Program-made: the position numbers and the translations under genes | DNA from: a virus | DNA length: 46,502 nt | IMG/VR virus record: IMGVR_UViG_3300036983_000096 | Location: 1 to 46,502 of that record | Strand: one strand, 5' to 3' | Shown: piece after piece, positions 728 through 44,628 of the stretch | How positions within the stretch are numbered: the first letter of the stretch is position 1 | Layout: every line of letters starts with the position of its first letter | The notes under the pieces: model-generated | What the model was told of the DNA's origin: nothing | Database searches by the model: none | What the model saw: only the letters and a program-made list of their open reading frames with translations

Positions 728-789
728 AAAATCCGCACTTGTATCGAAATCCGAAGAGGTCGCACCTGTCAAAGGCGAGTGCGGATTTT
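728..789 (+). other. perfect 12-bp inverted repeat after an ATG-TAA start-stop
   Basis: AAAATCCGCACT (728-739) pairs perfectly with AGTGCGGATTTT (778-789) across a 38-nt loop. Just upstream, AAAGGAG (711-717) precedes ATG immediately followed by TAA (724-729), a one-codon start-stop element. This looks like a structured leader in the 686-951 gap. A decayed gene is the alternative. Confidence 0.5.
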
Positions 790-865
790 GATCCAATGTC
801 GCATCGGAATCCCCGAACAAAGAAAGGAACAAAGCCTATAAGAAAAAAACAGGAGAAAAAAGTAG

Positions 866-889
866 ATGGCCACGTTGTTGATAGTCTAA
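866..889 (+). CDS. possible 7-codon leader peptide
   Basis: A Shine-Dalgarno AGGAG (851-855) precedes ATG at 866, which encodes MATLLIV and stops at TAA 887-889. The stop overlaps an ATG at 889 (TAATG) that is in frame with the following gene, so re-initiation could give that gene a longer N-terminus. A 7-bp hairpin (CCGTGCC 903-909 with GGCACGG 916-922) follows immediately. The arrangement resembles a leader or attenuator but could be chance. Confidence 0.3.
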   Translation: MATLLIV

Positions 890-951
890 TGGTGAGAACA
901 CTCCGTGCCGATCGTGGCACGGAACACCTAAAATCAAGGACAGAGAATATT

Positions 952-3521: not shown

Positions 3522-4742
3522 ATGTCTAAAAAATTAATAAAAAAACAGTTGGCTGCCGGCATCTTCCTGCTGAAAAGCGGGGAAGTCTGGATCCGGGCAA
3601 CCAAATGGGGCGTACCTGGTAAGCGGGAGGACACTCTTCCTGCAGGTACAACGCTCACCCGGGCATCCGGACGACGCGATGAACTACTCGAAGAGCTCGA
3701 GAGTCTCAAGCGCAGCGCCATCGATGCAGCCCGGGAGCAAAACCCCTGCTCTTTGACATATGACACACTCAAGGACCTCATAGAACTACATCGTAGAGAT
3801 CTGGGCTGTTACCGGTTTGATCGAACTTTTGCCGACATCGAGAAACGGTATGGACCGACTGCAAACGATCTCGATGCTCTAAAGGCAGCGTATCAGGAAA
3901 ATGAGCGATGGATGGAGACGTACATATCTAAGTTGACAAAAAAGGAACTTAGCCCGTGTACGAAAAACCATTATCGTAGAATTTTTAAGATGATTTTCCG
4001 CCATGCCCACGATGAAGGAAAATTACTCGACAAAGGATCACCTGCTGCGAGAGTGCCCCTAAGGATAAAGGTTGCATCTGCAAAGAAGCTCGCTCGAAAA
4101 CGAATCCTGAGCGAAAGTGAGCAGGCAAAGCTACTAAAAAAAATGGGCGACCCGGCAATTCCGATCTCGATCGATGACTTTATCTACCATAATGGGATGC
4201 TATGGCCATCTGAAAAGAGATCCACACTCAGGTGGGTAATAGGTTTCGCATTGGTGAACCCCATTCGCCCTGGTGATGTCCGTGCGATGAGAAAATCAAG
4301 CTACTGTCCGATCCGCAAGGAAGTAAAATTCTTTGCATCGAAAACAGCGGAGCGGACCTGCAGTTATACATATCTGCGAAACATTCCCGAGTGGTTTTCA
4401 GCTTACGTTGCATCGATCCCCAGCGATTGTCCCTGGCTATTCCCAATTTTATCTGTTGACACCAAAGGAGTGGTCAAATGGCAGAAGCGGGGGAGCTTCA
4501 AAACTGCATGGGTAAATTTCATGGGAAGGGTGGGTCTCGATGATTTTCATTTCCACGATCTAAAGAGGTGTGCTACTACCTATATGAGAAGAGTACAGGG
4601 CTACACTCCCGATGAATTCAAAGCTCTGGGACTGTACTTCAGTGACATTATAGATGTATACACCGACTTCAAGGCAGATGCGGTTCCCCGCCGTGAGATG
4701 GTTGACAAGGCTAAACTCGTTGAATTTTCCAAAACGGCATAA
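3522..4742 (+). CDS. int: tyrosine recombinase / phage integrase
   Basis: This 406-residue integrase should join attP (just downstream) to a host tRNA-Lys gene. AAGGAG precedes ATG 3522. Residues 1-75 look like an arm-binding domain, ~115-180 a SAM-like core-binding domain and ~195-390 the catalytic domain. Visible active-site residues are R249 (NPIRPGD), K274 (SKT), H345 and Y380 (DVYTDF). The second catalytic position reads HDLK, so the usual Arg is Lys348, with Arg349 next. The usual LGH box reads LGLYF. The spacing from H345 to Y380 is normal. It is the last plus-strand gene and is convergent with the small minus-strand operon. Confidence 0.93.
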   Translation: MSKKLIKKQLAAGIFLLKSGEVWIRATKWGVPGKREDTLPAGTTLTRASGRRDELLEELESLKRSAIDAAREQNPCSLTYDTLKDLIELHRRDLGCYRFDRTFADIEKRYGPTANDLDALKAAYQENERWMETYISKLTKKELSPCTKNHYRRIFKMIFRHAHDEGKLLDKGSPAARVPLRIKVASAKKLARKRILSESEQAKLLKKMGDPAIPISIDDFIYHNGMLWPSEKRSTLRWVIGFALVNPIRPGDVRAMRKSSYCPIRKEVKFFASKTAERTCSYTYLRNIPEWFSAYVASIPSDCPWLFPILSVDTKGVVKWQKRGSFKTAWVNFMGRVGLDDFHFHDLKRCATTYMRRVQGYTPDEFKALGLYFSDIIDVYTDFKADAVPRREMVDKAKLVEFSKTA

Positions 4743-4746
4743 AAAA

Positions 4747-4776
4747 GGCGTACATGTACGCTCATACATGTACGCC
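4747..4776 (-). terminator. hairpin: minus-strand terminator and integrase arm site
   Basis: GGCGTACATGTA (4747-4758) and TACATGTACGCC (4765-4776) form a perfect 12-bp stem with a 6-nt loop. On the minus strand the stem runs into six T residues (4741-4746), so it should terminate the small minus-strand operon. The half-stem ACATGTACGCC recurs on the other side of the tRNA-like core (4971-4998), so it is probably also an integrase arm-binding site. Confidence 0.7.
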
Positions 4777-4829
4777 TCGATATTAAGTGAATCACTTTTC
4801 TACTCGTAACTCACCTTTTTTAAAGAACT

Positions 4830-4873
4830 TACACCATTCAGGACTCGAACCTGAGACCCGCTGATTAAGAGTC
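4830..4873 (-). other. attP: attP core: 3' half of tRNA-Lys(CUU)
   Basis: Read on the minus strand this is the 3' part of a tRNA. The anticodon loop CTCTTAA (anticodon CUU, Lys) is at 4865-4871 and the 3' anticodon stem TCAGC at 4860-4864. The variable loop GGGTC is at 4855-4859. The T arm is TCAGG-TTCGAGT-CCTGA (4838-4854), followed by the 3' acceptor strand ATGGTGT and discriminator A. The bases before the anticodon loop (AAAGA) do not pair with TCAGC, so no full tRNA exists here. Placement beside int is typical of attP in tRNA-targeting phages. Confidence 0.88.
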
Positions 4874-4970
4874 TTTCTTAAAATTTTCATCCCGCTAAAA
4901 CAACCCTTATTATTCAATGGGTTATTGCCGTTCGAGTTTTTGTTGACTGGCAAAGATCGGCATTTCTCGG

Positions 4971-4998
4971 GGCGTACATGTACGCCGACATGTACGCC
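4971..4998. repeat. integrase arm-type repeats, distal side
   Basis: A perfect 16-bp palindrome GGCGTACATGTACGCC (4971-4986) is followed by another ACATGTACGCC (4988-4998). The same motif forms the hairpin at 4747-4776. Copies on both sides of the attP core, roughly 70 and 110 bp away, match the P and P' arm layout of tyrosine-integrase attP sites. Binding is inferred. Confidence 0.65.
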
Positions 4999-5048
4999 AA
5001 ATCTTTTACACATGAAACGACGATGGGTAGCGAGGCTGCTTTCTATTA

Positions 5049-30702: not shown

Positions 30703-30873
30703 TTAAAAAATGTCCCGCTCTATCCGTTCTACGACAACAAATTTCCGGTTGGGCCTTTTAATTCTTATCTCTGTGCAAATTTGGATTGCAGTTTCACATC
30801 TATTTGTTTCTGCAATCTGCATTCTATCTTTCGAGTTAACTTTTTCGATAACATAGGATTTTCTTTCTCTCAT
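30703..30873 (-). CDS. small hypothetical protein (56 aa)
   Basis: This 56-residue basic protein starts at an ATGA overlap with the terminase stop, with GAGGGGCTC before it. It is rich in Arg, Lys, Glu and Ile and may be a small nucleic-acid-binding or connector protein. It is short but well packed between terL and the gpW-like gene. Confidence 0.6.
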   Translation of the reverse strand: MRERKSYVIEKVNSKDRMQIAETNRCETAIQICTEIRIKRPNRKFVVVERIERDIF

Positions 30874-32765
30874 ATTTGAGCCCCTCGCGATATAACACGC
30901 CGGGCTTTTTTTGCAACCGGTCGTGTGAAGTCTGATTGATAAACCCGTTTTTCCTGTGCCAACAACTCAAGGTTCGGGTTCAAAACCTTGAGAGCTGCGT
31001 ATGCATAAACAAAACAGTCGAGTGCTTCATTACGTTTACCAGCCGGCAGATCCCACTGGCTTTTAGGGAGACCAGCAGAGTGCCGGATCAACTTTCTTTC
31101 CGCTGTCAGCTGGTCGAAAAACTTTTCATCTACGGTATCCGGAAAGTGGATATATCCGGGACCGGGCTTTACAATGTTTTTTAAATTCGCATAGAGATAA
31201 TCCTTTCCTTGATCTGCACCAACAAGAATGAGGTATACACCATTTTTCTGTTTTGATGCCCTACTTACAATACCACGCCCTGCGCCTGCCATGCCCTTTA
31301 TAGCCCAAACGCGACGCCATTGTCGAGGTAGAACAAACCCGTAAACTTCATCGGTCGCATGGCCTTGCGAGTCTATACAAGTAGTAGCGATATTCATCAT
31401 TGCACCCGACCGGTGTTCCCATTGCATTAACAAGTGCTGATCTACCAATTCCCAAACATCGCTCTGCTTTGTATTTCCCAGAAATATGCAATGGTCAATC
31501 AACCAGCACTCGCCTTTTTCACCCCAACCATAAACAGAAATCTCTACGCGATCGTCATGGGTATCCGCTCCCGCAGTCAAGCATAAGACCCCTTCCGGAA
31601 CAATTGCATCGTATTTCTCGACGCGTTTTGCTAACCAATGGGAATCAATCGTTGGAGTAATTTCCGAAAACACTTCTCCAAGAACAGTGTTTACCCATAC
31701 TTTTCGAAGAAGTGGATCCCCGATCGCAGCCAGGTGAGAACGTACAGCATCAACCCATGAGAACCAGCCCAGAGGAGAATATAGCGCTGACAGATGAAAC
31801 CCCGCCATCTTCGCCTTTGGCTTATGCTTAATCCACTGCCCATGCTCGAGCATCCATGGCTTGTGATATTCTCTAATTTCTGCTTTACAGTGGTCACATT
31901 TTAAATGTACACTATCTTCAATTAGAGCCCCGGAATCATCTGTCAAATACTTTATGTTTGACCACTTAATAATCTGTGGCTTTTTACAGTAAGGGCAGGG
32001 AACATAGAAATATCGTTGATCACTCTCATTGAACTTTTTTTCAATACGGGAAGATCCGGCAATGGTTGGAGTACTTGCGTAAAAACGTTTTTTCCTACTA
32101 AAATTTGTCGTCCTACGAATTGCGAGCTCCAGCGGATCCCCTTCACCATCGGCATCCCGGGGATATCCATCTATTTCGTCCGCATATAGATATCGAGCCG
32201 GCATCGAGCGCAATCCAGCTGCGCTATTCGCACCGGTAATTTTAAGTATTCCACCAGGGAAGTCCTTCTGTAGTGTCGTGTTCCCCTTGTCTCTGCTTTT
32301 ATTGTCCGAAACTTTACCTTTCAGTTGCTCACATGCAGCAATTGACGGCTGCAAACGTTGCTTAGAATTCGTTTTTGCCTGATCAATTGTAGGTTCTACC
32401 CATAGAATCGGACCCGGCGCATTTGCCATGTTGTAAATAATGCAATTCATCATGGTTTCGGTAGCAGCAATCTGTGACCCCTTCATAAAAGCAACGTCCT
32501 CGGTGTGCGATGAGGGAGACAATTCATCCATAATCTCGCGCATATATGGCACCCTGGATGTCCTCCACTGACCTGGTTCACCTGATGCCTCTGAGGGGAT
32601 AATCCTGTTTTCGTCGGACCAGTCTGCGATTGATATTTCCGGAGGAGGTCTAAAACCTTCAAGGAAATAGCTTAAGCAGTCCTGTATGGGTTTGTCGAAA
32701 TCGGTTTCGGACAAATCACATTTGTCATTAATGGTATTATTTTCACAAACCGTCAAACTTACCAT
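30870..32765 (-). CDS. terL: terminase large subunit, lambda gpA family
   Basis: This 631-residue protein is the ATPase-nuclease that packages DNA and cuts cohesive ends. It shows the gpA-family N-terminal ATPase (FMKGSQIAATETMMN near residue 95, ILWVEPTIDQAK, Walker B YADEIDG near 195), a CPYC...CDHC zinc pair near ~257-300, and a C-terminal nuclease starting with ADTHDDR near residue 400. ATG 32765 lies inside the end of the small subunit gene. The family suggests cos packaging. Confidence 0.95.
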   Translation of the reverse strand: MVSLTVCENNTINDKCDLSETDFDKPIQDCLSYFLEGFRPPPEISIADWSDENRIIPSEASGEPGQWRTSRVPYMREIMDELSPSSHTEDVAFMKGSQIAATETMMNCIIYNMANAPGPILWVEPTIDQAKTNSKQRLQPSIAACEQLKGKVSDNKSRDKGNTTLQKDFPGGILKITGANSAAGLRSMPARYLYADEIDGYPRDADGEGDPLELAIRRTTNFSRKKRFYASTPTIAGSSRIEKKFNESDQRYFYVPCPYCKKPQIIKWSNIKYLTDDSGALIEDSVHLKCDHCKAEIREYHKPWMLEHGQWIKHKPKAKMAGFHLSALYSPLGWFSWVDAVRSHLAAIGDPLLRKVWVNTVLGEVFSEITPTIDSHWLAKRVEKYDAIVPEGVLCLTAGADTHDDRVEISVYGWGEKGECWLIDHCIFLGNTKQSDVWELVDQHLLMQWEHRSGAMMNIATTCIDSQGHATDEVYGFVLPRQWRRVWAIKGMAGAGRGIVSRASKQKNGVYLILVGADQGKDYLYANLKNIVKPGPGYIHFPDTVDEKFFDQLTAERKLIRHSAGLPKSQWDLPAGKRNEALDCFVYAYAALKVLNPNLELLAQEKRVYQSDFTRPVAKKARRVISRGAQI

Positions 32766-33429
32766 CAGCCAATTTCCTCATGCCTTGTTTTAATTCGCCG
32801 TTCATGATGTCCTGTATTTCTTTCTCATCAACAACAACCATTTCGGCGACGTTTTGCCGTTGAATGTCTAACAGATTTCTTATGAATGCTGCCAGAATTG
32901 GAGATATTCGAGGGGGTATATTGAGAATGTTTTGCTGTATGGTCTGTGAATAATTGAAAAGTTTCACCATCAATGCGTCTTTGGGTACCAGGGCATTCCT
33001 CTTTTCCCAATATTCAAGCTCTGCCGTTTTAGCTGCAAACTTTTCACGGAGAGCCCGGTCCTTGTAATATGAGTCAACGTCCTCATTCGACTTCTCGGAT
33101 TTCTTCTTTCCTGGATCCGGCTTCGATTGTTCCGGAATGAGATCATTGATAAATGATTGTGCTTCGCCATCCGGAGCAACATACTGTGGGCTGCAGATAG
33201 AATCATCGGTTTTCCCAGCTTGCCGGCGAGTTGGTATTCGCTGTTGATCGAGATCTGTCTTTTGCTGCCAGTCGAGATCTGCTTGATCGGAATCGAGAAA
33301 CTTGAATATTCTGCATCCATGTGGCTCTTCTTTGGTGACAACAATCCGATTGTTCTTAATGGCCTCCTGGACAGAAGATAACGATACTCCCCGGTGCCTT
33401 GCGTATTCTCGTAGTGTCATTAGAGTCAT
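32743..33429 (-). CDS. terS: terminase small subunit (gpNu1-like)
   Basis: This 228-residue protein recognises the packaging site. The N-terminus is a winged helix-turn-helix (TLREYARHRGVSLSSVQEAIK, residues 4-24) as in gpNu1. The middle is charged and the C-terminal ~90 residues are helical, as for the large-subunit-binding part. It is the first gene of the late operon and lies 12 bp from the TGACCA repeats. It overlaps terL by 23 bp. Confidence 0.85.
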   Translation of the reverse strand: MTLMTLREYARHRGVSLSSVQEAIKNNRIVVTKEEPHGCRIFKFLDSDQADLDWQQKTDLDQQRIPTRRQAGKTDDSICSPQYVAPDGEAQSFINDLIPEQSKPDPGKKKSEKSNEDVDSYYKDRALREKFAAKTAELEYWEKRNALVPKDALMVKLFNYSQTIQQNILNIPPRISPILAAFIRNLLDIQRQNVAEMVVVDEKEIQDIMNGELKQGMRKLADGKFDGL

Positions 33430-33441
33430 ATATTCGATCTC

Positions 33442-33480
33442 TGGTCATGTATGACCACGGGTGACCAGGCCCGTTGGTCA
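33442..33480. repeat. TGACCA repeat cluster next to terS (possible cosB)
   Basis: Four copies of TGGTCA/TGACCA occur at 33442, 33452, 33462 and 33475. The first two form a 14-bp palindrome GGTCAT-GT-ATGACC. They begin 13 bp upstream of terS. In lambda the terminase-binding R sites lie in the same place relative to nu1, so these may be terminase sites, or operators of the late promoter. Confidence 0.55.
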
Positions 33481-33831
33481 TGTGTTTATAAATGCAAAAA
33501 ACGGGCAAAAATGAGCAGTGCTCTTTTTGTCCGGGGTGACAGGACCGGGGTTTGTTGTCAGCTAAATAAAAGCTGGGCGGCTTTGCCAACCCCCTCGGGA
33601 TGCTTCTCCAGAGGGACCCGTATGAGTGAAGGGGAGCCAGTATGCAGCTCACCCTCCCTGGGTTCATTCTGGGTTATTCGTGAGACACTACATGGTACAC
33701 CTCTGTCGATAATAGTTTAATAATGATTGTTGACGTGTGAATCATTATGATGCGACATACAAAAACAATATAGTGTGCGGTTTTGTTTTTCAGGGACAAG
33801 GTTTAACCGATATTCGGTAGGTGTTTGCAGG

Positions 33832-34145
33832 TGCTTACACTGCTTACATGTGTGCTTACATCTTTTGCTTACACTTACTTATATATATATCAATACTTTA
33901 TATTATTATATGTATATGTAAGCAGTATAATAAAGAAAATCGCGAATATATATAGAGGTAATGTGACTACCTTTTGATAACCATTACCGGAATAGAAACC
34001 GTATATATATAAATGTAAAAACTTGCTTATCGCGCTAACGTTTACAATTGATAGCTATAAGCCATTCATAATAGGACTGATAGGGGTAAGCAAAGCTGTA
34101 AGCGGATTGCGTAAGCAGTAAGCAGCTCAGGGCAGATGTGCTTAC
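33832..34145. repeat. paired iteron arrays (GCTTAC) around an AT-rich core
   Basis: GCTTAC occurs at 33833, 33842, 33854, 33867 and 34140. Its complement GTAAGC occurs at 33918, 34086, 34098, 34111 and 34118. Nine of the ten are TGCTTAC. Spacing in both clusters is mainly 9-13 bp, about one helical turn. The stretch between them (33876-34085) is AT-rich with TATATA runs. This is the layout of an iteron origin, or of a partition or operator site. There is no replication initiator gene next to it. Confidence 0.7.
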
Positions 34146-35012: not shown

Positions 35013-35507
35013 TCATCGTTGGGACGCGCGCTCGACACCCGTCGTTTTTTTGTTATTACGGATATCGTTTAGCGCGCGCGATGGTTTTTCTTGTTGCGAT
35101 GTAGATAGGGCAATGTTCTCGATCTTATCCAATGATAGTACTAGCCTGCCAAAATATTTATCAACAATTTCGCGGTAAATACGTGCTTCGGCTTTAGCGT
35201 TGATCAATTCGCGTTCAAGATCAGTCAGGTGCGTTGGATTCGTTTCATTGGGAGTGTGTTCAGCCTGGGGCGACCTAACAACATTTGTTGTTGATTGTAG
35301 TAAATCGTTAACAGATCCACTCACAAAAGAATTCCAATCGAAACCGAAAGCTTTAATAATCCTGTTTACATGTTCGATCGGTACTCGTGTTCCTTTTTCG
35401 TAATTATGCACATTTTGCTGCTTTGAGCCTATTTTTTTGGCAAACTCAGCCTCTGAGAGATTCATTCTCTCCCGTAATTCCCGAAGCTTTGTAGAGATGT
35501 TTTGCAT
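35013..35507 (-). CDS. phage repressor, HTH_3 (cI/Cro-like)
   Basis: This 164-residue protein has an N-terminal HTH_3 domain at residues ~7-60 (LSEAEFAKKIGSKQQNVHNYEKG). The C-terminal ~80 residues are helical and charged and are probably for dimerisation; no LexA-like Ser/Lys protease is seen. It is divergent from the early genes. Operators TAACAA-N6-TTGTTA lie between them, one of them starting 3 bp upstream of its ATG, so it should repress both directions. A LexA-type cleavage induction is not supported, so induction may use another signal. Confidence 0.88.
   Translation of the reverse strand: MQNISTKLRELRERMNLSEAEFAKKIGSKQQNVHNYEKGTRVPIEHVNRIIKAFGFDWNSFVSGSVNDLLQSTTNVVRSPQAEHTPNETNPTHLTDLERELINAKAEARIYREIVDKYFGRLVLSLDKIENIALSTSQQEKPSRALNDIRNNKKTTGVERASQR
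35276..35293. promoter_or_regulatory. possible third repressor operator inside the repressor gene
   Basis: TAACAA-CATTTG-TTGTTG matches the operator pattern TAACAA-N6-TTGTTA except for the last base. It lies inside the repressor coding sequence, about 215 bp from its start. Looping or chance are both possible. Confidence 0.35.
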
Positions 35508-35795: not shown

Positions 35796-36152
35796 GTGGA
35801 ACAGGTTACATTAATAAATATGAAAGATGCCTACAGCCGATTAAGAAAATTTAATATCGTCTACAGGGGTTCATGGTCTAAGTGCTCGGATGCGATTTGC
35901 CTATTTTGCGGTGGGCTTGTGCGGAATGGCATTTGTCAAAACGAGGTATGCGGTACTGCTGTTGTTTGTTGTTCGTGTGGGAAAGTAAAATACCCAGATG
36001 GTAGTTATAAAGCGAGTGGTATCACGCCCAAAAAAGTAAGCCATAGCGTATGCATCGGATGTATTAAGGAGATCTATCCACCAACACAAGTAAAAATGTT
36101 CCTTTCAAAGATGATAGCAAGGAAAATTATAAAGGAGCTTACCAATGGTTGA
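35796..36152 (+). CDS. Cys-rich zinc-binding protein (118 aa)
   Basis: This 118-residue protein has two pairs of CxxC (CLFC near residue 35, CCSC near 59) and two further pairs nearby, a likely double zinc ribbon, and a basic C-terminus. It is the second early gene, 12 bp after the RHH gene, and overlaps the next by 8 bp. A DNA- or RNA-binding role is plausible. No family is named. Confidence 0.7.
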   Translation: MEQVTLINMKDAYSRLRKFNIVYRGSWSKCSDAICLFCGGLVRNGICQNEVCGTAVVCCSCGKVKYPDGSYKASGITPKKVSHSVCIGCIKEIYPPTQVKMFLSKMIARKIIKELTNG

Positions 36153-36624
36153 AATTTTCGAACTTCCCCAGTACCCGCTACCGTTCCCGCGAAAGTTTAT
36201 AGGCCATTTTGCAAGCCCTGTGCTTGCTATGATAAAAATGAAATGGACGAAGGAAGAGATGCAGTCAGCGCTCAATGGTGCAATAGACCGGGATGATGAT
36301 ACAAAGAATGTAGGATCGGGAATAGTTCGTGATCGATACATCCTTGAATTCACACCGGAATGGTTAAACAAGCTGGCCTGTGATGAATTAATATCAAATT
36401 ACCCGGAGGGTATGAGCTTTGACGACATGGCTGTCATTTTAGATGTAACCCAAAGTGCGATAGAAAAAACTTTGGACCGAGCGAAAAAACGATTAAGAGA
36501 CTCAGGGCAGTTCCTTAGGCTTGTGCGACTTGTCAGTTTACTCAGGGAACTGCACTACCACGGTGGTAGTAGTGGTCTTGATAAAGAATTCAAGGTGAGT
36601 ACAAAAATAACGATTGTAAATTGA
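36145..36624 (+). CDS. HTH protein with sigma-70 region 4-like domain
   Basis: This 159-residue protein has an HTH at residues ~90-120 (MSFDDMAVILDVTQSAIEKTLDRAKKRL), the pattern of sigma factor region 4. The first 80 residues are not recognised. It is the last gene of the first early segment and converges on the primase gene with an 8-bp gap. It may be an early or late regulator; a full sigma factor lacks evidence because region 2 is absent. Confidence 0.7.
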   Translation: MVEIFELPQYPLPFPRKFIGHFASPVLAMIKMKWTKEEMQSALNGAIDRDDDTKNVGSGIVRDRYILEFTPEWLNKLACDELISNYPEGMSFDDMAVILDVTQSAIEKTLDRAKKRLRDSGQFLRLVRLVSLLRELHYHGGSSGLDKEFKVSTKITIVN

Positions 36625-36632
36625 TCACCAGG

Positions 36633-39341
36633 CTAATCCTCCCCCTCGTAAATAGTCGACCAGGGAATGCCCGTTGCCCTGGTCGACGCTCCAAAAAAAC
36701 GAACACAATTCTTCCCTTCAGCTCCCGGTAATCTACGCAACAATCGGCCCCAAGTCTGGGACCATGTCGTCTTTTCGAGGATGCGCTTTATACCCGTGTG
36801 ACTGTCGCTGATCCACACCAACCATCCCTTATCTTTATCTTCAGTAATCCGGATACCGAGTCTTTTCAAGGTTTCTTTGTACAGTACATCGGTTTCATCC
36901 TCATATGCAGCAGCTACCCCTGTCAACTTAGTGAGTACAGCCAGCATTTCGCTGATGCTTTTGTGTCCTCTGTCCTTTGGTAATAAGACCGTGTGTTGTA
37001 GGATTGCATCGAGACAGTTGCGTTCGTCCAATACACCCGGATCTTGCATCTGGCTTGGTTCGAAGTCCTTTATGAAATCATTCAAAGAACTCTCATCCAC
37101 TAAAGCGTTCGACATAAGTCCCCAGGTGCCTGCCAATAGTGTGCCGATCTGATCTCCCGAACGACGATTACCAAGCTTTTCGGAAACCGCTCTTGCAAAG
37201 ATTAAACAGTTTTCTTTCAAGACCGGAACCTGCTTTATTGCCCGGGCTCGTAGTGCAGCACACCATTCCGGAGTCATGGTTGTGGCTATCTTTTTGTTGA
37301 GGCCGGCGAAAAGAACCTCTCGCTCGTGGATATTTAACCATGTTGGTACCTGTAACGTTGCAACAACAACTCTTGTTTCGTCTGCATGCTGTGGCATATT
37401 GACAGTTATGCTGCTCAAGCAAAATACAGAACGTATATCATACTCTTGAGCCCGGCCGTACTTTGATCCTTTTGTTATTTTGGCATCAGTCTGGCTCGAT
37501 GACTGGCGCATGAGCTCCAGCACATCCTCCATATCCCGTTCACTCTCATCGAAAAGGACCGGAAGCGCATCACTTGCTAATTTTTGTCTGATCCCGGCAG
37601 CTGTTGATTTCGACTGGAAAAAGGCACGAAACGGACCAAGGGTGGGTGCAATTATGTTTTGTAGTACCGTTGTCTTCCCTGATCCCGATGATCCCGTGAC
37701 CCAAATGTGTGGACGCCAGGATAGTGCTCCGCAAATTGTCGCGATGAAACACCAGCCGGCAACGTAGAGTGAGTGTATTGGATTTTCCCAATGTAAGCAC
37801 TGCATTATTTCAATCAGCTTTTTTGATTCGTCATCCGGTAAAGGTACTGTTTGAATGTCCCGAATAGCCCGACCGGACTCATACACGAACTGACTATCGA
37901 TATCGGCAATGTTGGACCGGTCGCCATCAACCATAAGGTGGTCACCAAGATGCATTATCACGCGACCCCTATCCCACCAGGCCCCACGCCCCCGACACAA
38001 CGTTGGATCATACACCGATCGCTCTTCGTTGCCCCGAAGAACAGCATCAACACCACGTTGCCAATCCGGGAACCCCTTCTTGCCTGGGAACTTTGACCAC
38101 CACCAACTGAGTGGTGCTAACGTCAACAGCGCATTTGCCGTGTGCCCCTCGCCCTTGATGCCTTTAATTTGGCCAGTAGCATGAGGTAAATAATAGTAGT
38201 ATTCTCGGTCATACCCCAGGCATTTGAACGGGGCATCTTTAAGAGGGTTTTCTGCCAAAAAGTAGTCAGCATCTGGGGGGGCAATCGAGTTTTTACTTAT
38301 AAACTCCTGGACATCCTGCAGGGTCCACTTATCAGTGTTAATGGCGTCCCAGCAATCCCATCCGTCGGGTTTATTATCAGCCGTATCGACAATCTTAATC
38401 GTTTTTACCTTTTTGCCCACAATATCAGCGATAGTCAAAGCAGCCTGAAATCCTGGCTGGTCGAGCTTTCGCATTACTTCGCCAGCGTTAGGGTGCTTTT
38501 CATCATAAACTTTCTTGTCGGAGTCTGGCCAGTATGTAAAAACCCTGCCGTTCAGTGGCTTCCAGTTAGTTTTGCGTACGGCTTTACATCCACCCGGCCA
38601 AGTGATAACAACTATAGGGATCTTGTGATTATCAAATAGCAGCTGCAGCGCATCAGCACACTTTTCTCCTTCAACTCCAATCACGTCATAATCTGGGAAC
38701 TGATATAGCCGGCCAAGATTATAGAGCGGTCGCGGATCCGGAAAGGAAAGGAATTTCCATTCTCTTTTACCGGCACTGTTTTTCCAGTACGCCAGTGGAA
38801 CAACTTCCTTTCCACCGTGCGGTTTCTCATATCTGCACGCATACCCGATAGTTTTACCATGCTCATCTGTATATGCCCAATACTGACCAATTTTATATGA
38901 GACCCAGACTTTATTCTCAAGTCGATTGAAGCTTTCTGGTTTCGGAGGTGCATCGTCTGGAATGGGGTAGACTATTGTCCAATCAGATTTCTTTTTAAAC
39001 GGAAGTTGTGAGGGTGTTGATGCGGCCTGAGGAGCAAATGGCGTCTTGTCATCCATAGGGATGTTTAATTGCCGGGCTAACTCTTTCGCGGCCTCACCCT
39101 GCCGGATACCGTTTATATATGCATAAAGCGATATCGGATCATTCCCCTTATCGTTTGTTGCAAAATCCATCCAAACGCACGATTGCAAGTTTATTTTAAA
39201 TGATCCGGCTTCTTTATCCGATCGCGTGGGGTTTAGTGCTACATAATCAGCACCCTCAATCCGCCCCCCTGGTAACCAGTTATTCAACAGTGTCTGTAAA
39301 TTAAAAAGCGCTGCCTCATTGATTTTATCAAAGTTTATCAT
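36633..39341 (-). CDS. primase-helicase with TOPRIM and DUF927-like ATPase
   Basis: This 902-residue replication protein has an N-terminal primase-like part (residues ~1-100), a TOPRIM motif near residue 220 (DVIGVEGEKCADAL), and a DUF927-like helicase with Walker A VTGSSGSGKTTVL near 550 and arginine-rich motifs behind it. It resembles phage and plasmid primase-helicases. It lies alone on the minus strand between two plus-strand early segments. No strong Shine-Dalgarno precedes ATG 39341. It is the main replication protein, and the origin may be the iteron region at 33.8-34.1 kb. Confidence 0.85.
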   Translation of the reverse strand: MINFDKINEAALFNLQTLLNNWLPGGRIEGADYVALNPTRSDKEAGSFKINLQSCVWMDFATNDKGNDPISLYAYINGIRQGEAAKELARQLNIPMDDKTPFAPQAASTPSQLPFKKKSDWTIVYPIPDDAPPKPESFNRLENKVWVSYKIGQYWAYTDEHGKTIGYACRYEKPHGGKEVVPLAYWKNSAGKREWKFLSFPDPRPLYNLGRLYQFPDYDVIGVEGEKCADALQLLFDNHKIPIVVITWPGGCKAVRKTNWKPLNGRVFTYWPDSDKKVYDEKHPNAGEVMRKLDQPGFQAALTIADIVGKKVKTIKIVDTADNKPDGWDCWDAINTDKWTLQDVQEFISKNSIAPPDADYFLAENPLKDAPFKCLGYDREYYYYLPHATGQIKGIKGEGHTANALLTLAPLSWWWSKFPGKKGFPDWQRGVDAVLRGNEERSVYDPTLCRGRGAWWDRGRVIMHLGDHLMVDGDRSNIADIDSQFVYESGRAIRDIQTVPLPDDESKKLIEIMQCLHWENPIHSLYVAGWCFIATICGALSWRPHIWVTGSSGSGKTTVLQNIIAPTLGPFRAFFQSKSTAAGIRQKLASDALPVLFDESERDMEDVLELMRQSSSQTDAKITKGSKYGRAQEYDIRSVFCLSSITVNMPQHADETRVVVATLQVPTWLNIHEREVLFAGLNKKIATTMTPEWCAALRARAIKQVPVLKENCLIFARAVSEKLGNRRSGDQIGTLLAGTWGLMSNALVDESSLNDFIKDFEPSQMQDPGVLDERNCLDAILQHTVLLPKDRGHKSISEMLAVLTKLTGVAAAYEDETDVLYKETLKRLGIRITEDKDKGWLVWISDSHTGIKRILEKTTWSQTWGRLLRRLPGAEGKNCVRFFGASTRATGIPWSTIYEGED

Positions 39342-41341: not shown

Positions 41342-43042
41342 ATGTCCTCTCAGAACAACTTGCAAACTCCGGTACTTATCAAATGTTCAATAATACATCC
41401 ATCCCCGGATAACAAGCGATCGGTCACCGATGAGTATATCGATGAACTTTCGAAGAACATCGATGAGGTTGGTTTAATGCATTACCCCATTGTTCGCCCG
41501 CACCCGTCAATTGATGATGAATATGAACTGGTGATCGGTGAGCAGCGTTGGAAGGCCTGTTCAAGGCTGTGGAAAGAAATGCCTGTTATAATCCGTGAGC
41601 TTGATGATCGAACAGCCCACATCATGATGTACACCGAAAACATAAAACGCTTTGATCTGAGCCCTATTGAACAGTCGCGCGGTATCAATCTCCTGGTGAC
41701 TGATGGTTTCACTTTCGAAGAGATCGCCGACAAGCTGGCAAAGCCCGTTTCGTGGGTCGCCCGGCGAGCAAAACTTCAGGACCTGTCTGCAGCCTGGAGA
41801 GAATTACTGGCAAATCAGGAAAGCGATATAAGCCGATGGCCAGTATCACACCTGGAGCTGGTCGCCCGTTTCGAGCACCACATCCAGGACGAATTCTATC
41901 GCGAGCACATCGAAGAAAACGATGGAACCTACACACTGGGAGAACTAAAGGGATACCTGGATTCGTACCTGCTTAAATTGACAGCAGCACCATGGCGGAT
42001 CGATGATTCTGATTTGTGTCCCGAAGCTGGTGCGTGTACCGATTGTCAAAAGCGGACATGTGCCCAGCAAAACCTTTTCGAAGTTTTAGAGATAAAAGGC
42101 AAAAACATTGACCAGTGCACAGATCGGGTTTGCTGGACAAAAAAGATCGAGGCTTTCATAACCATGAAAGAGGCATCACTCAGGTCTGAAAATAACCAGC
42201 TTATCAAAATTAATAATGCCGGTTATTCAGGGGGCTTTCTCCCAAGTGACCATGAGCTAAAGACAAATTCATTAAAGAATTGGGAATATAACGAATGTAA
42301 AAAGTCTGATCAGGGAGCCCGACAAGCGATAATAGTTGATGGTCCAGGTGCGGGTCAGACCAAGTGGGTGAAACCTCAGTCGGATGCTGCTGCAGCAAAA
42401 GCATTCGCAGAACCTAATACAAAATCCTTGAAAGATCGCAGGGAGGCGTTGGAAAAGCGTCGTAGAGTATTGGTGCTTAAGAAACTCATTGAGATGATAG
42501 AGGCAGAGTTAAAAACTCCTGCAAAGATGAAAAAACTAAAGCAAATGGATCTCCTCCGTGCGGTGCTTGTTTTCGGGTCGAAAAACTACAGTTATGTAAC
42601 TGATGAGCGCATCAATTACTTCGATCAAGATGGATGGGGTGACTATGAGGAAATATCCGATGAGTTCGATACACCATCTGAGATCGCCATTGAACTGTGC
42701 CGTTGCACACTGCCTTTTTGGAAGCAGGAATTGTGTATATGCCGGGACGGATCCACGAATTTGGATTTTGCGAAAAAGGTTTGTCAATTTTTACAAATTG
42801 ACATCGACGCGATTATCACGTCAGCTGCAGAAGAAATAAAAGAGCCTCGTGCATGGGCAAACCTGAAAACAGATGGAACACCTAAAGCCGCTCCAGCAAA
42901 AAACGCCTCTGTAAAAAAGGAAAAACAAACCGTATCCAAAGGAAAAACAGGTTCAAAGTCCCCGAAAAAGGCTGCAAAGAAAACGTCGTATACTGCAGCG
43001 GAAGATGATCCTGCATCTGATGATGACATGGGTGATGAATAA
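41342..43042 (+). CDS. ParB-like protein with central Cys cluster
   Basis: This 566-residue protein has an N-terminal ParB/Spo0J domain (residues ~10-110 with GEQRWKACSRL and ENIKRFDLSPIEQ) and an HTH near 115-150 (FTFEEIADKLAKPVSWVARR). A Cys cluster lies at ~220-265 (CPEAGACTDCQKRTC, then TDRVCW), and the tail is Lys-rich then acidic. AGGGAGC precedes ATG 41342. No ParA partner is in the window. Such ParB-like proteins are common in phages as DNA-binding regulators or nucleases; the iterons at 33.8 kb could be its sites. Confidence 0.85.
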   Translation: MSSQNNLQTPVLIKCSIIHPSPDNKRSVTDEYIDELSKNIDEVGLMHYPIVRPHPSIDDEYELVIGEQRWKACSRLWKEMPVIIRELDDRTAHIMMYTENIKRFDLSPIEQSRGINLLVTDGFTFEEIADKLAKPVSWVARRAKLQDLSAAWRELLANQESDISRWPVSHLELVARFEHHIQDEFYREHIEENDGTYTLGELKGYLDSYLLKLTAAPWRIDDSDLCPEAGACTDCQKRTCAQQNLFEVLEIKGKNIDQCTDRVCWTKKIEAFITMKEASLRSENNQLIKINNAGYSGGFLPSDHELKTNSLKNWEYNECKKSDQGARQAIIVDGPGAGQTKWVKPQSDAAAAKAFAEPNTKSLKDRREALEKRRRVLVLKKLIEMIEAELKTPAKMKKLKQMDLLRAVLVFGSKNYSYVTDERINYFDQDGWGDYEEISDEFDTPSEIAIELCRCTLPFWKQELCICRDGSTNLDFAKKVCQFLQIDIDAIITSAAEEIKEPRAWANLKTDGTPKAAPAKNASVKKEKQTVSKGKTGSKSPKKAAKKTSYTAAEDDPASDDDMGDE

Positions 43043-43755: not shown

Positions 43756-44628
43756 ATGCCAACACGGATTCAGTGGTGTAAAAATTCGGATGGGTCACAG
43801 GGTGAAACCTGGAACCCTTGGCAGGGCTGTACAAAGATTTCGGAAGAGTGCAGATATTGTTACATGTTTCGGGAAAAAGCTCGATTCGCACAAGATCCGA
43901 CACGGGTAGTAAGATCATCCCAAAAAACATTCGACAAACCAAGATCGCTACCTGCAGGCACAGTCGTGTTTACATGCTCGTGGTCCGACTTCTTACATGC
44001 TGATGCAGATGCGTGGAGGGGTGAGGCCTGGGACATAATTAGAATGTCAAGCGATAAGGTTTTTATAATACTTACCAAGCGGATCGAACGGGCCAGGGAT
44101 CACCTGCCAAAGGACTGGGACGAAAACTTCCAGCATGTATGGCTCGGTATTACTGCAGGAGACCAGATAACATTTGATAAGCGATGGCCATACCTGTCTC
44201 AAATTCCCGCATCTGTTTATGTAATCAGTCATGAGCCGGCACTCGGTTTAATATCCTATCCACAGGATCTTCTATCAAGAAAAGATCGAGCCTGGATAAT
44301 TGCCGGGGGTGAAAGTGGCACGAAAAGCGAACCCGTCCGACCATCTCACCAATTGTGGATCCGGAACGATAGAGATCAGTGTGTCGTTCATGGCGTACCG
44401 TTCTTTTTCAAATCTTGGGGTGAATGGGTGCATGGTGTACGCGACTGTGCTGGATACCAGCTGCAAAACATGAATTACACTCACGGCCTCGACAATACTG
44501 TGAAATGGGTGGTGGGTGGGATATCCGTGCGGGTGGGCCGTGCCCTGTCAGGTCGTTTAATTGACGGTCGCACATGGGACCAGGTACCTCAGGTAAGTAT
44601 AGGCAGTAATGAACCATCATTATTCTAA
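43756..44628 (+). CDS. DUF5131 protein (phage Gp37/Gp68 family)
   Basis: This 290-residue protein begins with a cysteine motif C25-x6-C32-x2-C35 (CTKISEECRYCYMF), as in the radical-SAM-like DUF5131 family. The conserved TCSWSDFLH, ILTKRIERA and IAGGESG segments are present. AAGGA precedes ATG 43756. The family is widespread in phages and mobile elements; its reaction is not established. The protein also ends in SLF, after Glu-Pro, a weaker version of the clamp motif. Confidence 0.88.
   Translation: MPTRIQWCKNSDGSQGETWNPWQGCTKISEECRYCYMFREKARFAQDPTRVVRSSQKTFDKPRSLPAGTVVFTCSWSDFLHADADAWRGEAWDIIRMSSDKVFIILTKRIERARDHLPKDWDENFQHVWLGITAGDQITFDKRWPYLSQIPASVYVISHEPALGLISYPQDLLSRKDRAWIIAGGESGTKSEPVRPSHQLWIRNDRDQCVVHGVPFFFKSWGEWVHGVRDCAGYQLQNMNYTHGLDNTVKWVVGGISVRVGRALSGRLIDGRTWDQVPQVSIGSNEPSLF

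Follow-up and report, generated by a model that had tools for sequence, protein, structure and literature searches.

The window analysed here, the whole of a 46,502-base virus record, carries an array of ten short repeats that is very probably the origin of phage replication used by the phage's own primase-helicase. Judged from sequence, a site of the same kind, built on a different repeat word, is present in dozens of related phages and plasmids, usually in the same slot. This reading is supported by computation: the clusters are paired, the AT content is extreme, some two thirds of the relatives have arrays, the array is placed between helicase and terminase, and the iteron word is linked with the helicase C-terminus. 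An unexplained repeat becomes in this way a predicted origin with a named initiator, and this rule can be applied to phages and small plasmids, some of them from cultured hosts, to locate candidate origins where no annotated ones were seen. No description of an origin family of such arrays was found in the open-access papers searched, and its novelty is provisional; the genome paper of phage phi1422 lists no such repeat or origin. The window also encodes an integrase, a gpA-type terminase, a lambda-type portal, a cI-like repressor, a 902-aa primase-helicase and a ParB-like protein. No near-identical DNA was found among public phages.

Structure of the repeat array

Ten copies of GCTTAC are contained in 314 noncoding bp, at the positions and on the strands given by the preliminary description (Table 1). 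As it also reported, nine of them read TGCTTAC, the exception being the minus-strand CGCTTAC at 34098, and a near-copy, TGCTTAT, lies at 34024. Clusters A and B are mutually opposed, with one stray copy apiece. The earlier statement that no gene explains the array holds as well, the sole overlapping frame being of a chance size (50 aa). It had been proposed to count the motif over the whole genome: GCTTAC occurs 23 times in the record against 16.3 expected, which is only a mild excess, so that the signal is clustering and not frequency. TGCTTAC is concentrated in the array, where 9 of the 12 copies in the record fall within 0.7% of the sequence. The maximum number of any 7-mer within 314 bp reaches 9 there, as against 3-4 in 60 simulated first-order Markov sequences.

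At the core between the clusters the AT content is the highest of the whole 46.5 kb record, whether windows of 60, 100 or 200 bp are taken (starting at 33881, 33863 and 33874, respectively). The array thus has two features of an iteron origin, a short noncoding repeat clustered beyond chance and an AT-rich region between the iterons. The cumulative GC skew, another check suggested at the outset, does have its minimum near the array (32844), but this is given little weight because it coincides with a switch of gene direction. No match to Rfam was obtained.

Table 1. Features of the window that bear on the proposed origin
Feature	Position	Strand	Remarks
Iteron cluster A, four forward TGCTTAC	33832-33872	+	copies at 33832, 33841, 33853, 33866
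AT-rich core, candidate DNA unwinding element	33873-34085		AT-richest part of the record
TATATATATATCAATAC in core	33880-33896	+	also in L034 array
Stray reverse iteron, inner edge of cluster A	33918-33924	-	
Iteron cluster B, four reverse copies	34086-34124	-	copies at 34086, 34098 (CGCTTAC), 34111, 34118
Outer forward iteron beyond cluster B	34139-34145	+	
Primase-helicase, 902 aa, proposed initiator	36633-39341	-	TOPRIM-like N-terminal half, AAA+ helicase, C-terminal domain
C-terminal domain of primase-helicase, candidate iteron binder	residues about 765-902		
Terminase large subunit (terL), gpA type	30870-32765	-	far flank of syntenic slot
Terminase small subunit (terS)	32743-33429	-	far flank of syntenic slot
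Candidate cos region, TGTCACCCCGGA	33448-33563	-	L004 has the same at the same place
cI-like HTH protein	35013-35507		between array and helicase gene
Sigma-region-4-like HTH protein	36145-36624		between array and helicase gene
ParB-like protein	41342-43042		

Arrays in relatives of the primase-helicase

A single-sequence scan with the helicase found no relatives. The alignment-based scan gave 570, from which 80 viral contigs were kept; together with 8 named phages and plasmids, 88 relatives were fetched. An automatic filter, requiring at least 5 copies and little ORF overlap (both the ORF filter and the cluster statistic are simple), was passed by 63 of the 89 helicase-family records, the window included, as having a comparable noncoding array. 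Against the proposal counts that about a third of the relatives have no array by this filter, some of the contigs being short. The arrays of L114, L127, L147, L164 and L178 were doubtful and were dropped from the correlation and AT tests, while L100 and L103 had been missed by the filter and were added, leaving 60 records for later tests.

The arrays of the relatives are made of other 6-7-mer words and mostly start less than 100 bp past the helicase stop codon. Since the 80 contigs include many that are related to one another, the argument is carried by non-redundant counts: a 6-mer is found at least 7 times within 450 bp after the helicase in 10 of 29 non-redundant relatives, compared with 1.8% of 1072 other windows taken from the rest of the same contigs. 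In several other relatives the array lies 2-12 kb downstream of the helicase, as in the window; L106, which has the closest helicase (41%), carries it 2.1 kb past the helicase gene, ahead of terL. Iterons are thus downstream of the helicase gene in the window and in most relatives, as in systems of the SaPI Rep/Cch type. L119, L122 and L142, with the array 7-10 kb upstream of the helicase, count against the origin reading.

The window reads on the minus strand helicase (39341-36633), array (34145-33832), then terS and terL (from 33429), and the order helicase - array - terL is kept in 19 of 19 records with all three elements (18 if one doubtful array is left out). The preliminary description had stated that no initiator is adjacent, which is misleading, as the end of the helicase gene is 2.5 kb from the array and the same order is seen in every relative with all three; the distance and the two regulator genes lying in between do nevertheless count against the origin reading. 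In 55 of 60 records, 100 bp of DNA in the top 1% of the locus for AT content falls within the array, which is true of 10% of random spans. Direct inspection showed paired clusters with an AT core between them in L102, L142, L183 and L101.

The eight named relatives have helicases 24-36% identical to that of the window, and each has a compact array of a short word, nearly all of it noncoding. Among the words are TGTTACC in Bdellovibrio phage phi1422, TGTTAGC in Arsenophonus plasmid paPv13, GGTAAYA in Atlantibacter plasmid pLH84-a-B, CCGTTAG in Synechococcus S-H1 and CGGTTACC in Pseudomonas phage Dolphis (L103), whose array also holds the ATATCAATAC portion of TATATATATATCAATAC. The linear plasmid paPv13 (L101, NZ_CP123517.1; 9.6 kb) has only seven annotated genes, which include those for a protelomerase, a terminase small subunit and the helicase part of the window-helicase family; it appears to be a minimal replicon or satellite derived from a phage. 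Together with the 19 kb Atlantibacter plasmid it looks like a natural small replicon of this type.

The TGCTTAC word in other contigs

Conservation at the same place in relatives, named earlier as a decisive point, was borne out for the position and the kind of element; the exact word TGCTTAC recurs there only in L034. This contig is a distant structural relative of the window (shared proteins 22-37% identical). In the slot upstream of terS it has, like the window, TGCTTAC iterons and the core sequence TATATATATATCAATAC; the fragment ends at its array and does not reach a helicase. The closest terL (59%) belongs to L004, a fragment showing no helicase. Upstream of its terS, in AT-rich DNA, there is a GTTGC/GCAAC cluster of eight copies in 560 bp, which exceeds all of 2000 Markov sequences, and the word GTTGC is close to the GTTGCAA iteron of the helicase relative L108.

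When viral contigs were scanned for three copies of TGCTTAC, 69 stretches were found, and the raw counts are meaningless because the reversed control word gave more (91). The only difference, a weak one, concerned two-stranded arrays, 7 for TGCTTAC versus 2 for the control. Many of the 69 stretches are one-stranded with an even spacing of 7, 8, 15 or 30 bp, and such repeats are probably in part coding; several more are within or close to genes that encode replication proteins of other families (DUF927, DUF5906, VapE, Prim-Pol). A search of genome contigs with TGCTTACATGTNTGCTTAC gave five matches, about the number expected by chance, none of them with an array. A two-stranded TGCTTACC array was noticed in L030 (2639-2894) beside a DUF927 and HTH_56 (Cch-like) helicase, which suggests that similar iteron words arise with unrelated helicases. 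In L050 (4585-4832) and L064 (8724-8981), TGCTTAC/TGCTCA arrays stand directly after a DUF5906/D5_N helicase gene.

Primase-helicase and its link with the iteron word

The C-terminal 563 residues of the helicase were modelled with a mean pLDDT of 87. In Foldseek the model matches the AAA+ primase-helicases SaPI5 Rep, NrS-1, D5/E5 and MCM at E about 1e-6 to 1e-5, with a low overall TM of 0.3-0.5, and the predicted fold is that of an AAA+ self-loading helicase. No significant match to the DUF927 or D5_N/Primase_Cterm Pfam families was obtained for the window helicase, and it can therefore be said that it works like SaPI Rep/Cch, not that it is one of them; DUF5906 was weakly matched in 2 of 36 helicase relatives. 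The last 138 residues form in the model a confident small domain of helices followed by two-stranded beta-hairpins (pLDDT 91), for which alone Foldseek returned no PDB match at E 0.001.

Among 35 non-redundant members, iteron similarity follows C-terminal identity when the helicase core is controlled for (partial rho 0.34, p 0.0005), and core identity adds nothing once the C-terminus is given. In a sliding-segment scan that left out iteron sites within the gene, the highest score was that of the last 45 residues; segments 505-549 and 680-724 also pass, and for this reason the correlation with the C-terminus is taken as support and not as proof. Of the binders considered in the preliminary description (ParB-like protein, primase-helicase and small HTH proteins), the sequence data favour the primase-helicase as the best candidate and lend no support to the others. 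It is tentatively proposed, at somewhat less than an even chance, that there is a large family of phage and satellite primase-helicases, so far undescribed, in which a fast-evolving C-terminal domain without a solved structural relative reads a private iteron word. Such words are often of the form TGNNNNC. If the proposal is true, many replication specificities would be built on one conserved origin layout, with a recognition code readable from sequence. Matched helicase C-termini and iteron words make initiator specificity and replicon compatibility directly testable.

Proposed mechanism and comparison with known systems

By analogy with SaPI Rep, Cch2 and P4 alpha, the most likely mechanism is one of assembly, melting, loading and priming. 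Subunits of the primase-helicase would bind the TGCTTAC iterons by the C-terminal domain and would probably form two hexamers, one for each of the opposed clusters. The assembled helicase would open the AT-rich core, be loaded onto the separated strands and unwind the DNA bidirectionally, primers being made by the TOPRIM-like N-terminal half.

In SaPI origins, two sets of iterons flank an AT-rich region. As reported by Ubeda 2007 (cited in PMC7581432), SaPI Rep uses its C-terminal domain to recognise short iterons that immediately follow the rep gene, and apparently does so as two hexamers. The window would resemble this system in having a helicase initiator with iterons downstream of its gene, C-terminal recognition being here a proposal. 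Unlike SaPI Rep, the window protein joins primase and helicase in one, with its TOPRIM-like N-terminal half, the hosts of its family include Proteobacteria and cyanobacteria, and the iteron words differ. The putative origins of SCCmec Cch2 and Cch are similar in that iterons lie downstream of the helicase gene, and the C-terminal domain of Cch2 was found by gel shift to bind direct-repeat iterons at that place (PMC7581432). Cch2 has three AAGTG iterons and separate CCPol-MP priming proteins, whereas the window has ten TGCTTAC-type copies, and there is no detectable sequence relation between Cch2 and the window helicase. Phage P4 uses ori together with a separate crr element. Its alpha protein, like the one proposed here a primase-helicase fusion with origin repeats, binds these repeats by a winged-helix domain, then unwinds and primes (PMC4234260), while the C-terminal domain of the window protein has no PDB match (Foldseek, E 0.001). 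In plasmid pRN1 an essential noncoding origin is located directly downstream of the primase-helicase gene ORF904 (PMC4234260), a comparable placement, but that origin is a stem-loop and not an iteron array, and the ORF904 primase is of the archaeo-eukaryotic type.

Alternative explanations

Three other readings agree with what lies around the array but not with the comparison of relatives, and are less likely than an origin. The preliminary description had left the choice between an iteron origin and a partition site; the former is strongly supported, while it is improbable that the array is a parS-like site at which the ParB-like protein segregates an extrachromosomal prophage. The genome does encode such a protein, and so do PY223 and ZRG1, relatives with displaced arrays. 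However, arrays abut the helicase gene in paPv13 and pLH84-a-B, neither of which has an annotated parB, as well as in phi1422 and S-H1, with no annotated parB in the part of these records that was read. The iteron is also non-palindromic, and the array keeps its position relative to the helicase. No ParB relatives were confirmed in viral contigs. The cluster downstream of the ParB-like gene includes a DUF5131 protein of unknown function (phrog_2045, 43756-44628).

Cos sites of the lambda type sit upstream of terS, and the array is found about 400 bp upstream of the terS of a gpA-type terminase. A cosB-like role, in which the repeats would be sites of the terminase small subunit guiding DNA packaging, is nevertheless very unlikely, since the arrays of most relatives are at the helicase end, often kilobases from terL, and a better cos candidate, TGTCACCCCGGA, with further GTCACC/GGTCA repeats near it, lies between array and terS and is common to L004, which is without TGCTTAC arrays. 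That the array serves as an operator for the cI-like or the sigma-region-4-like HTH protein, whose genes both lie between array and helicase, is hardly credible, as promoter-like sites show no excess (3 versus 5.2 in shuffles), a cI operator does not look like ten non-palindromic sites that enclose 200 bp of AT-rich DNA, and the arrays track the helicase, not the repressor.

Other features of the window

No whole tRNA was detected in the window by ARAGORN. The record opens (1-30) with GGTTCGAGTCCCG, a sequence similar to a tRNA T-loop. In the stretch 4747-4999, directly downstream of the integrase gene (3522-4742), copies of the palindrome GGCGTACATGTACGCC flank a sequence like the 3' half of a tRNA (about 4838-4872), and this stretch is probably attP with integrase arm sites.
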